NCBI GenBank assembly: GCA_029959195.1
Contig: CP114117.1
Location: forward strand, 2,666,001-2,730,000
DNA from: Dictyophora rubrovolvata
Taxonomy: Eukaryota; Basidiomycota; Agaricomycetes; Phallales; Phallaceae
DNA: 64,000 nt
Direction: 5' to 3'
This document shows, one piece after another, positions 1,836 to 6,968 of this stretch. The notes beneath the pieces were generated by a model, which had not been told where the DNA came from, made no database searches, and saw only the letters and a list, made by a program, of their open reading frames with translations. The position numbers were made by a program, and so were the translations under genes. The stretch's first letter is position 1; each line of letters begins with the position of its first letter.

Positions 1836-3055
1836 TTAAGAAGGTACCGCCAAACCGCTTTGCACAGCAGGTCTGGATTTAATCCGTTCCAGCCATGCCT
1901 TGACAGAAAAGGTAGGTTAATACCACTAACGAAAATGGAACCGAACTGCACGATTTCCATACCTGAATGTTAGGATATTCGCTCATATCGATCTCTGCGT
2001 TCTTGCCAACATTAACCCTATCACAATATTATTGATAAGCCCAGGCCCTCTAACAATAAATGATCTTACCAGGGGCTGCATAATACTGTTAGACGCATTT
2101 AAAAGAGAAAAAGGCAAGGAGCTTACAATGTTTTTATATCTGCGATGGTGAAACGGTCTCCGACGAGATATTCACGACCTTTCAGCCGCCCTTCCAATAC
2201 GGAGTACAAACGTTTCGTTTCATCCTGTATTGGTATTCCAATTAGCCTCCAAACAGTAGAACCAAGCTTAGGGCTCAAAGCCACGAACAAAGTAACGTTT
2301 AATTGCATAAGGAATCGTTTCCGGTGCATATTTTTTGAAATGGTGCCTATTTCAAAAACCTGAGTTTTCTTTCTCCTGCTTGTTATAAATTGTAGACACG
2401 TACAGCTGACCTTGCCTGGAAAAGACCTTTAACGAATTGAACTAAGGACAAAAAGAAATCACGATTACTCACATCGGTCCAACTCCTCCATGAGCGAAAA
2501 ACAGCCATTGAAGGACTTCACTGTAAAGTTTGGGTTCCTTCACGGGATCGTAGGACAATTTATGTTCGGGATCATAATGCTGTCCAAGATCTGCCATCCA
2601 GAATGAGCACAACTATAGAACAGTGATTTAGGAAAGATCATCGACATACATAGTAAGATTGCTGACGTCTCAAATACAGCAAAGTCGCCATTCTTATGAT
2701 CGACGATAGCAGGAATACGGCCTATGGTAACACAACGTCTTAGAAAAAGAGAAAGTTTCATCGCATAAGGTTGGTAATATAGTACCATTGGGATTGATCT
2801 TCAAAAACCATTCGGACTTTTGTTCGTTCTCTTTGAAAGAGATTGAACGTAGCTCGTCTGAAATTCAGAATTTGAGAACCACGCCTGCACTGCAGCCCGA
2901 GAGAAGTAACGCACAATCAATATTAAGTTCACTCAGAGTGACAGATATAGGGTAACCTGAGCATCGTGTAAATGCACACGTTCAAGCGGAACAACGAAAG
3001 AAAAGACCTCACCATTTGGTGTACTAGCGGTATAAAAAGTAATCGGTTTCGACAT
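1836..3055 (-). CDS. Glutathione S-transferase, Ure2p-like
   Basis: Cytosolic glutathione transferase of the fungal Ure2p/GTT class, which conjugates or reduces with glutathione and is often expanded in wood- and litter-decay mushrooms. The start is MSKPITFYTASTPNG; after an intron the frame continues YPISVTLSELNIDC, the thioredoxin-fold N-terminus. Later exons give ENEQKSEWFLKINPNG, then RIPAIVDHKNGDFAVFETSAILL with the glutathione-binding cis-Pro and E-[ST] motifs. The helical C-terminal domain shows GREYLVGDRFTIADIKT and ends KAWLERIKSRPAVQSGLAVPS before TAA at 1836. About six introns are needed and all joins inspected keep frame, so it looks functional. An in-frame upstream ATG at 3151 would add a basic, Ser/Leu-rich leader, but it lies only about 17 bases from the TATA box, so ATG 3055 is preferred. 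Confidence 0.88.
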
Positions 3056-3175: not shown

Positions 3176-3743
3176 ACGCTGTCTGTGATATGACGATATG
3201 TCCTGAAGCGTATGAGAAAACACCATGACGAAAAAGTTTGGGCTGGGTAAATGAATATCATGGGAAGGCGCCCTTCTGACCAATCGACGTTGATGGAAGA
3301 TCTGCTCATATTTATTGTATTAGTGAGATTTCCCCATGAACGATCAGTAGTAGGTAGGTTTTGAATCTAGATTATCAAGCAATTAGTAATATTCGGAGGA
3401 GGCTTGATAATCGACATATTCATCACCGCAGTTCAGCTGACATGAATCACCTACATTATATTGAGAACTTTGGAAGCTTGAAGGTCGAGAACATCGTTTC
3501 CTTGGTGGTACTAGACTTGTACTAGACTCGGAATTGATGACCGCGCGCAAGATGTCGCCATTTCGGTCCCGCCTTGCGTGCCAGCCTGGGAGCGCTCAAG
3601 TCACGAACAAAAGTAGTCAAGCTATTCAAGACTCGATCTCTCATATGTATTTCGTTCAAAATGAATCTTCGCTGAGCGAGCACTTACGGCACCCAATTAC
3701 AGGTTCAAATTTCTCAAAAACAAATGTTACGCATAATTTATTT

Positions 3744-4529
3744 CTAATAGTACAGAAATACAAATGATAATTTTAAGTGGTCTTCCATTTCAAAAATCAC
3801 TACTAGATAACGCATTCAAATACGAAGCCAGGAGTCAAGCCCAAACCAAGCACTTACAAAGACTAAAATAAAGTGATAGATCATCAATTAGTAGCCAAAA
3901 ATCCATAGACAAGACCAAACACTTACAACTCTCTGACAAAAAGGACAGAGCGATCAGTGTTACATAAGTGATGCATCTTATAAAACGTCCTACTTACGTT
4001 CCTCTGTGATTAAATAAAAAAAAATCAGATAAAAAGTAGACGTTCACAGCATCCTCTTAACTCACGGTTTGTATTTATACTAATAGGCAACCCCAAAACT
4101 ATTTAACAGAGCGTAATCAGATTCAGATTACAGTAAGCGTTTATAGCACCATCGAACACACTGTTTATATTGTCATCGGGAAACTGGGAACTTGCTAATC
4201 AACGTAAGTACGTTGTGTCTCTCGTTTGCCTAGAGAGACAATATACTCACATCTACCCCTTTTGATATCCGTAGAGACAAATGATAAACTAAGTATCGTT
4301 ATTGATTGATTGTTCACTTTTTCATTCTCACCAGCAATTTCTAATCAAAGTACATAAGTACGTTTCAAAATGAGGGAGTTAATGCACTCACCATCCTTCG
4401 CAACTGTAAAATCCATTAAGCAAGGGCATATAAATCCAAAAATTGTACATCCGTACCGAGAGAAGGGGAAACAGAGAACAACAGCATTGAGAAGAGAGCA
4501 GCGAAGAAAGCGGTGTTAGCGGATTGCAT
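3744..4529 (-). CDS. Secreted small protein encoded by a string of micro-exons
   Basis: Exon 1 (4457-4529) starts with ATG and encodes 24 residues typical of a signal peptide (MQSANTAFFAALFSMLLF, then SVSPSL). It is followed by GT-AG introns separating tiny exons: 4392-4403 (12 nt), 4332-4340 (9), 4251-4258 (8), then further blocks 4066-4079 (14), 3998-4003 (6), 3927-3932 (6) and 3858-3862 (5). Most end at a strong GTGAG or GTAAGT donor and follow a TTAG or CAG acceptor, with introns of 51-73 nt. The first four exons join in frame as SLVAKDEIAGVD. Beyond this the structure is uncertain: a short reading ends at a TAA near 4165; a long one using a 3 nt exon gives 64 residues ending at 3744; another uses 4150-4160 and adds DCVRC. 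I recognise no family. The signal peptide and tandem splice signals make the gene likely; the exact protein is not settled. Confidence 0.55.
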
Positions 4530-4622
4530 GTTGGGTCTCTAAATTTTAATACGAAGGATGTGGGTGACAGTAGATATTTGAGAGCTCGGGATGAGTGAAG
4601 TATGTAGGTTGTTTGAATGTTG

Positions 4623-4630
4623 TTTATATA
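4623..4630 (-). promoter_or_regulatory. TATA box of the micro-exon gene
   Basis: TATATAAA on the minus strand, about 95 bases upstream of ATG 4529. It supports real transcription from this side. Confidence 0.45.
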
Positions 4631-4639
4631 TATTTTCGA

Positions 4640-6968
4640 GCCGACTGTTAATGACCTCTCTCGAAACGTATTCTACCTCTGAGCGTCATGATGTTGTTCA
4701 GCTGAAAAGACCTCCCGAAACTTGCACTGGTTTACGGACCTGACTGTAAAGCATGTTTAAGTTATCCGCCCCCTTTTTAGTAAGGGCTGCTCTAAGCATA
4801 AGTAACAGTCTGGAACGGTGAACTTGGGGGTTTCGAAATGCATTAGACGATAATGTGATAGGTTGGTATTACTTTGGCCATAAAGAAAAAATCAGTCATA
4901 TTGTATTCTGCAAACGAAAAAGACATTACATCGTTTTACAATTTTGCGACCTTTACAAGCTCTTCAATGCGTATATTATTTTGCAAGGAACCTGTTATGA
5001 TGGAGGTTTGATTACGGCAAAAGTCTAAAAATGATTGTATGCCGTCAACTTTTGAAAACCGTCCAACCTATCGTTTGAAATTGAAAGAAGTCAGTTAGAA
5101 CAAATACAGGAATGATGAAGAATGCAACTTCAGTACGGTCATATTGTCATCGCAAATTACGGTATGAATAATATTGAGCCATATGTGTGAGGTAGAGTCA
5201 AGGCCCGTTTGTTAAAAGTAGGGCATCATGACATCCCAGGTATGTCAAAGGGATACCGGACCCTCACCAGCACTACATGTTCCGAAGAGGCGCGAATTCG
5301 CAACAAACACGGGTCTATGTCGGGCCTGGCTATGTACTCACTACTCAAGTGCATAGGGACTTGCGACCCTGTGGCGTTCTTGCACGCTCGTGTGTGGGTA
5401 AAAGCTCGTCTCTTAATCCGATTGTAAGCAAAAACACAAGCGATGGTTAAGGATGTATACTTTTGATGCGCTGAACTCGGCCAAAGCCTCCATTACTAAC
5501 CGGAACGGACCCTTTCGATTAGAAACAGCTTGATCACTTGAAAAATCGGTAATTAGGAACCAAGGCACTCACTATAAACTTTGGCACTGTTGATCAAATT
5601 TACGGGCCTTTTTTTGTTAGACAACCAGTTGAAGCGTTCGAATTAGTGACTCGAAGAACAATAATGGTTCTTCAAAGGGTATTCTAACCCAAAACTCTAC
5701 ATGTTGGTTGCCGTTTATGAACCTGTTTAACAAAGGATCAGCCAAAGTTGTTGTATAAAAAACCAGAGACTCGGGTATTTGATTCCCACAGGAACAGGGT
5801 CGGAAGTTGAATAATAGATAACAAAATAGATTTAATATAATATATGGGATTAGATAATTGGACGAAAAGCATAACTGGGATGAACAGCGTCAATGACCGA
5901 AATTTGCCCATTCGTTTTCTCGCCCAGGCGATCTCTGCCTGCGGCCATACAATTCAATCCCTAAATGGAACGCATCTGGTTGATTTGGGAAAAATCAGAG
6001 TGGTTTCGAGTGATACAATTCAAAATTCACAGGTCAGAGTGTAGGGATCGCGGGATATCGAAAAGCGTGATCAATTATGATACACCAGTTAATCGGTAAT
6101 GAAACGAGTTGAAAACACCAGCCCTGGTCAGTTTGGAGGTAAACGTAGTACGGGATTGAGAAACATCGCAGCGGCAAATGAGCAAACCTCACTTCCCTGA
6201 ACATCATCCACGGGCGTAAAATTGAGTATGAAGTTAATGAGCCGAACTTGACGCCTTTTTGCCAGATGTGAACAAATAGTCTTCCGGGTCAAGACAGGAA
6301 CCAAGTTCATCTCCTGTGAACCACACCGTTTTTGTTTTTGTTTTGTACAAAATAAAAGCGCTTACGGAATCTGTTTACGACTTGGGCTACTTTTGAACCG
6401 GTTGACTGTCGTGCGGTGCCTGTTAGCCCACGAATTATTCTCAGCCGAATTTTTGGCACCGGTTCTTCTAAAAAGAATCAATGTTATGGGCTATCATTTA
6501 AGTCACCTCATAACCCGAAAAAGAATTCATCCTCAAGCAAGTAGGTCGAGCATGTCGTGTAAGTATATCATGCTAAAGTTGTGACTTCACATGAGTCACA
6601 TTAGCTGACATAATGTGGTCCGACTCGTAAAAAAAACTCTTCAGCTCAACTTTATGATTCTCATAAATTTCAAGATATTAACCAGCCAAGACCATTAATC
6701 AACTGGCCATGAAACCCGCGTGAAAATTCAAACAACAAGGTGGTTCTTTTACTTGATTATACCCTATTTAATGCATGCCAGCCTAGGTGCACTAGCGGTG
6801 CAAAAAGGTTGATCGGAATCCGTAATCAGATCTTTTCTGTCCAGGATGGTCGACTAATTCTTGTTTAATTTTTACTGGCGTCTGTCCAAATATCCCTTTA
6901 AGAATCTCTTCTTTGGCCGGTTTCAGAATGTTCTTCAATCATTGAGGCGTATCCTCTGTCTTTGTCTT
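4640..6968. other. Intergenic; no gene recognised
   Basis: Over 2.3 kb with only short unrelated frames (longest about 70 codons). It ends with the promoter and 5' leader of the lyase gene. No repeat or RNA gene was recognised. Confidence 0.5.

Follow-up and report, generated by a model that had tools for sequence, protein, structure and literature searches.

A likely family of secreted-peptide genes with a micro-exon layout in the genome of the fungus Dictyophora rubrovolvata

Here, we describe a locus of D. rubrovolvata that likely belongs to a small family of paralogous genes for secreted peptides, in which the coding sequence behind the signal peptide would be divided into mostly frame-neutral exons of 3-45 nt in a layout resembling that of the schistosome micro-exon genes (MEGs). 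The gene lies on the minus strand of the window, by which we mean the whole 64,000-nt stretch analyzed (C1:2666001-2730000 of a 28.24-Mb genome in 11 contigs), and three full-length paralogues are designated B, C, and D. A first-pass annotation of the window had read the locus as a secreted-peptide gene split into micro-exons with a MEG-like layout. This reading is backed by paralogues with matching exon sizes, by the conservation of splice sites, and by the position of the stop codon, which three genes share at one splice junction. A search for paralogues with the same layout found them in the same genome. Judged from the sequences, the observation is real in its core and largely holds, with an exon list in need of correction.

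Behind the 73-nt signal-peptide exon, the minus strand carries a string of strong donors, each a few bases past an acceptor (Table 1). There are 34 GTRAGT sites on this strand of the window (64 kb), and six of them fall within positions 3744-4529; on the plus strand, taken for comparison, the densest 786-base stretch holds two. The gene extends over ~730 bases from the ATG to the stop codon, and its introns are mostly 48-75 nt long. The signal exon (4529-4457) and the seven GTRAG donors (4391, 4331, 4250, 4065, 3997, 3926, and 3857) are exactly where the first-pass annotation had placed them, and the first four exons of its list join in frame, as it had claimed. The sizes it gave to the small exons (12, 9, 8, 14, 6, 6, and 5 nt) all correspond to possible AG/GT cuts, but from the third of them onward the list is wrong. 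The 8-nt exon corresponds to the last 8 bases of a stretch homologous to the 21-nt exon of the paralogues, where the homologous acceptor is TG and not AG, and the 14 nt form only the end of a 33-nt exon, as seen from its counterparts in C and D. This part of the list was discarded, since it would place the last three exons in a reading frame that conflicts with the one common to the paralogues. The intron range of 51-73 nt had to be given up as well: the intron between the 8-nt and 14-nt exons of that model would be 171 nt, and the last intron is 114 nt when measured to the acceptor picked in this analysis. Downstream of the micro-exon gene, an ORF on the minus strand (window 2126-2428; start near 3054 read by eye) matches the C-terminal domain of glutathione S-transferase (Pfam GST_C).

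Table 1. Predicted features of the window gene, its paralogues, and a desaturase with a very short exon (plain numbers are window positions)
Feature	Position	Strand	Support or remarks
Window gene, internal exons of the model		minus	12, 9, 45, 33, 6, 6, 5 nt
Exon 1, 73 nt, ATG and putative signal peptide MQSANTAFFAALFSMLLFSVSPSL, donor GTACGG	4457..4529	minus	homologous signal exons at five other places
Micro-exon, 12 nt, phase 1 on both sides	4392..4403	minus	12 nt in 4/4 full-length models
Micro-exon, 9 nt, phase 1 on both sides	4332..4340	minus	unit similar to that of the 9-nt exon in paralogue C
Probable relic of the paralogous 21-nt exon, 27 nt here	4251..4277	minus	alignment to paralogues
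Exon, 45 nt, phase 1 on both sides, weak donor GTGCTA, boundaries uncertain	4150..4194	minus	spelled-out model
Exon, 33 nt, acceptor gttaaatag	4066..4098	minus	homologous to the 33-nt exon of C and the 30-nt exon of D
Micro-exon, 6 nt	3998..4003	minus	6 nt in B; zero length in C and D (AG/GTAAGT)
Micro-exon, 6 nt	3927..3932	minus	6 nt in B and D; 3 nt in C
Micro-exon, 5 nt, phase 1 to phase 0	3858..3862	minus	5 nt in 4/4 full-length models
Stop codon TAG directly past the last acceptor (ctag/TAG)	3800..3802	minus	corresponding junction: TGA in B, TAA in C
TATA-like element TATATATAAA, ~100 nt upstream of the ATG	4623..4632	minus	read by eye
Paralogue B, full-length	C2:184620	minus	pattern and similarity; internal exons 12, 15, 21, 30, 6, 6, 5 nt
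Paralogue C, full-length	C2:186553	plus	pattern and similarity; internal exons 12, 15, 21, 9, 27, 33, 3, 5 nt
Paralogue D, full-length	C3:259495	minus	pattern and similarity; internal exons 12, 15, 21, 27, 30, 6, 5 nt
Truncated copy E	C3:388015-388481 (L053 4016-4482)		signal exon and last micro-exon region kept
Distant relative F	C5:715666		shares the signal exon, has its own small exons
Desaturase with a 5-nt exon	L068 (C1:2660800-2663000), about 1340-1170	minus	

A pattern of one micro-exon between strong donors occurs at 127 places genome-wide (the matches listed cover C1-C8) and at 197 in the reversed control, so single patterns of this kind mean little. A pattern no commoner than in its control is also what would be expected if GT and AG motifs had fallen into line by chance behind an unrelated ORF. 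Against this reading stand the scores of whole chains, which lie above those of all shuffles, as described below, and the paralogues with their matching exon sizes, and we give it a negligible probability. Consecutive pattern matches formed chains at two other places, and one more similar match was found; DNA and protein similarity searches confirmed these places as paralogues, the counts being lower bounds. The sample comprises four full-length members in one genome. In the truncated copy E, other sequence takes the place of the middle part, and some of the splice sites have changed. A signal-peptide similarity search for more members returned only the known ones, with the window gene itself absent from the five matches of one search. 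A pattern containing the 5-nt exon matched five places genome-wide, namely, the four full-length genes and one desaturase, and none in the control; it was modeled on the family genes and hence is no independent test. Separately, a repeat beginning GTAAGTTAATTAG mimics the micro-exon pattern and accounts for 22 of the listed pattern places (e.g., C1:724851, C2:179067, and C4:2008562). Gene structure and a peroxidase-like ORF, judged by eye, point to a basidiomycete, and the best match of a methylase-family search resembles, by eye, a housekeeping enzyme.

Whole chains of exons were scored using general donor, branch-point, and acceptor consensus sequences, with a scorer that ignores the reading frame and allows exons of at least 3 nt. 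The top-scoring chain of the window reached 29.7 bits and comprises exons of 22, 33, 6, 6, and 5 nt; the best on the plus strand scored 6.1. None of 150 dinucleotide shuffles of the window (both strands) reached 29.7 (mean 9.8, highest 17.3), nor did any of 2000 shuffles of positions 3501-4700 (highest 18.8). The frame-blind scan was also applied to both strands of 36 genome pieces (229,591 bases), which had mostly been fetched for a pattern match and of which at least two overlap. Among the 25 chains of at least two micro-exons listed for these pieces, the top ones were those of B (37.0), the window gene (29.7), and C (26.9), and more than three micro-exons were found in only three chains, all of the family. 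In the chain of C, the scorer puts a 4-nt exon where we read one of zero length, as exons below 3 nt are disallowed. D was recovered in two parts (17.0 and 11.6), and the fourth-ranked chain was the desaturase (17.6).

The gene models were built from the alignment and from spelled-out exons and were chosen partly with the frame in mind. In these hand models, all introns except the last are in phase 1, every internal exon apart from the 5-nt one has a length divisible by three, and the internal exons of all four genes begin at codon position 2. In the four models, 57-64% of the coding length lies in internal exons of 3-45 nt. Since the exons divisible by three have a common phase, skipping of any one of them would keep the frame. 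In silico, subsets of the multiple-of-three exons could be skipped without creating an internal stop in 64 of 64 cases for the window gene, 64 of 64 for B, 128 of 128 for C, and 56 of 64 for D, and exon-skipped variants of the predicted genes are possible. Past the 5-nt exon, a stop codon comes immediately behind the next acceptor in the window gene, B, and C, and the frame-blind scorer picked the identical final acceptors in these three genes; as a background rate, a stop directly follows YAG at 165 of 3171 sites in the window. In D, the last acceptor of the frame-blind scan has no stop after it, and a stretch matching the end of C (tttag/TAATG) is present beyond an insertion of ~1,258 bases in the last intron. 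The peptides, read in the family frame, end in QEQSFF (window gene), DENIFF (B), DKF (C), and DQF (D). The insertion in D (L033 about 3500-4757, C3) ends in CTAG after a short hairpin and looks by eye like a small Helitron-type element.

When a frame-aware finder that starts from no hand-chosen exons was used, the 33-, 6-, and 6-nt exons of the window gene appeared in all five best models, and four of the five had the complete 33-6-6-5-stop end. Further upstream, a 38-nt exon, which ends at the relic stretch 4251..4277, and a 22-nt (or 33-nt) exon replaced the 9-nt exon, the gap, and the 45-nt exon. The 9-nt exon was dropped, a 4-nt exon replaced the 12-nt exon in two of the top five models, and the exact hand-built model was absent from the top five. 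In the other genes, the finder preferred one 42-nt exon to 12 + 15 nt in B, a 3-nt exon in place of 15 + 21 nt in D, and a 6-nt exon in place of 36 nt in F, and the hand model of C, which includes the zero-length exon, ranked third. We consider the middle exons of the window gene uncertain. In the relic stretch, the acceptor AG is replaced by TG and the donor GTGAGT is intact; in the family frame it would read VSTDIKRGR, and the corresponding exons of the others read VPAHIER, VPADVEG, and VPTNVKG. The relic exon is probably skipped in the window gene, leaving a 137-nt intron, and the 45-nt exon probably precedes the 33-nt exon. The change of AG to TG, the weak donor GTGCTA, the disagreement of the best frame-aware models with the family layout in the middle part, and the truncated copy E, in which decay has happened within the family, would all fit a window copy that is a former family member losing its exons, with an unreliable middle. 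A decaying copy would hardly be expected, at ~54% intron identity to B, to have kept 24 of 28 splice letters, an open frame, and the stop at its junction, and we regard decay as rather unlikely.

In six of the seven comparisons tested, the splice letters are better conserved than the introns (p 0.0003 to 0.0032); these seven are among 12 directed comparisons, which share sequences and are not independent. Between the window gene and B, the matching splice dinucleotide letters noted above (four more face gaps) compare with 225 of 415 positions in the intron bodies (p 0.0007). Between C and D, 32 of 36 splice dinucleotide letters match, which is no significant excess over the introns (p 0.07). 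Exons are slightly more conserved than introns, with 88 of 142 positions versus 225 of 415 for the window gene and B, and 166 of 192 versus 425 of 550 for C and D. That introns are nearly as conserved as exons might point to a non-coding host gene, in which the tiny exons would be waste and the introns would carry small RNAs. An Rfam search of four loci (one per full-length gene; 14,038 bases) at E up to 1 gave no match, the signal peptide and the stop position are conserved, and introns that are mostly 48-76 nt long could hardly accommodate snoRNAs; a host gene of this type is therefore very improbable.

Introner-like transposable introns were considered and rejected. Whole-gene DNA searches with C, the window gene, and B as queries found family places only, so the family introns are not a common repeat. 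Intron pairs within genes exceeded z 3.5 in 5 of 121 cases and z 4.5 in 3, compared with 8 and 2 of 396 pairs of a family intron with another intron, the control introns being taken from scored chains and not from proven genes (an earlier run of this test: 4 pairs). The 9-nt exon unit of the window gene matches that of C better than all 300 shuffles. Tandem duplication of exon-intron modules in the family is suggested by such sequence likeness, but suggested only. An excess of amino-acid change was looked for in the paired exons of C and D (signal, 12, 15, 21, and 27 nt), where dN was 0.07 and dS 0.12. For the signal exons of the window gene and B, the values were 0.29 and 0.77, and their last three micro-exons have two silent and five replacing changes, too few to judge. 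Diversifying selection is unsupported by these counts of silent and amino-acid changes over the pairable exons, which are few data.

All four models have a hydrophobic N terminus (best 15-residue hydropathy 2.12-2.66 in a hydropathy scan). The peptides of C and D contain LysArg, a possible processing site. A Pfam search with five family peptides at E up to 1 matched no family. Here, we propose a course of expression based on the gene models. A TATA-type promoter probably drives a short pre-mRNA, from which about 8-9 introns, mostly of 48-75 nt, would be removed. Short introns are recognized as units, and exons too small for their own recognition can be kept. Splice sites would presumably be paired across each short intron, and with this pairing, exons of 3-45 nt would survive. 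The product would be a precursor of 56-65 residues, consisting of a signal peptide and an acidic, cysteine-free peptide of ~35-44 residues. Frame-neutral exons may be lost, shrunk to zero, or skipped without breaking the frame. Transcription, splicing, and secretion are features that we infer from the gene sequences, and a role of the peptides in signaling or in contact with other organisms is a guess based on the gene layout.

In C and D, the position of the first 6-nt exon of the window gene and B is occupied by an acceptor joined directly to a donor, with nothing in between. Such an AG/GTAAGT followed by another micro-exon occurs at two places genome-wide, C and D, and at 19 in the reversed control. 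For C as well as D, each of the five best finder models uses the zero-length site, although any extra site adds to the finder's score. A frame-neutral exon loss may have left a recursive splice site here, or else the entire stretch would be taken out as a single intron of 130-137 nt. In animals, recursive splicing at zero-length exons has been described for large introns (PMC5126111 and PMC2773006). The AG directly before a strong donor in C and D resembles the animal sites, whereas the introns there are large and the site predicted here lies in a gene (C) of <1 kb. The step from 6 nt to zero length between paralogues provides a natural test of the spliceosome on exons of 0-6 nt with very short introns.

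A fatty-acid desaturase ~8 kb from the window gene also contains a very short exon. The 5-nt exon TGGTG lies in the conserved histidine-box region and joins the stretch QGSIK-WW-CLRHRLHH, and the frame breaks without it. The joined fragment matches Pfam FA_desaturase (E 4.4e-8) and aligns with a solved acyl-CoA desaturase (4ymk) with no gap across the 5-nt exon (E 1.1e-23). Therefore, protein homology indicates that splicing of very short exons takes place in ordinary genes of this genome. The P450 genes of Phanerochaete chrysosporium contain exons as short as 6 bp, and introns of 45-55 bp are frequent in them (PMC1184071). Those micro-exons are scattered in long enzyme genes, whereas here they make up the whole gene behind the signal peptide. 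Micro-exons in such ordinary basidiomycete genes favor a reading in which the family is the same, but dense intron gain has produced its tiny exons as a neutral by-product, with constitutive splicing and one peptide per gene. The phase 1 symmetry would then mean frame-neutral change in a short secreted peptide, and this is compatible with the structural claim. The lack of an excess of amino-acid change in the family agrees with it, as does the rarity of coding exon skipping in Schizophyllum commune, where PMC5034255 gives skipping as ~1% of coding-region events in the main set; a looser set in the same source has 1,527 skipping events inside coding regions. Other facts speak against a neutral by-product: among the 25 chains listed from the 36 pieces, the long ones were confined to the family, and an exon acceptor has been lost in the window gene, another in D, and an exon has shrunk to zero length in C and D. 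Because all these changes are frame-neutral in the hand models, the absence of exons is at least tolerated. On balance, we lean slightly toward the neutral by-product. An independently arisen fungal counterpart of the schistosome MEGs, in which secreted peptides would be diversified as frame-neutral micro-exons are duplicated, silenced, shrunk, and skipped, with a zero-length exon that works as a recursive splice site, is an unlikely reading.

In schistosome MEGs, as predicted for the present family, a signal peptide is encoded at the 5' end and most of the coding length is in very small symmetrical exons. The organisms are a flatworm and a fungus, and the likeness is one of gene layout; membership of the family in the schistosome MEGs is not likely. 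The bicycle proteins of aphids carry two CYC motifs, in contrast to the family peptides, none of which (0 of 4) has a cysteine. Bicycle genes are fast-evolving putative effector genes whose many internal exons are unusually small and nearly always begin at codon position 2 (PMC9168663), and the small internal exons modeled for the present family start at the same position. Bicycle genes have on average ~17 exons, compared with 9-10 here. No description of a fungal class of micro-exon secreted genes was found in the open-licence literature, judged mostly by titles and the starts of abstracts. If transcripts confirm the models, micro-exon secreted-peptide genes would have arisen in fungi too, in addition to flukes and aphids, and, if this is true, the layout itself would seem to be favored where secreted peptides change fast. 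Gene finders and protein databases easily miss genes of this kind, and for this reason catalogues of fungal small secreted proteins may lack a class. As a minor observation, two near-alike neighboring gene copies at C4:2088788 and C4:2093094 (L034) have, by eye, many small exons, one of them of 9 nt.
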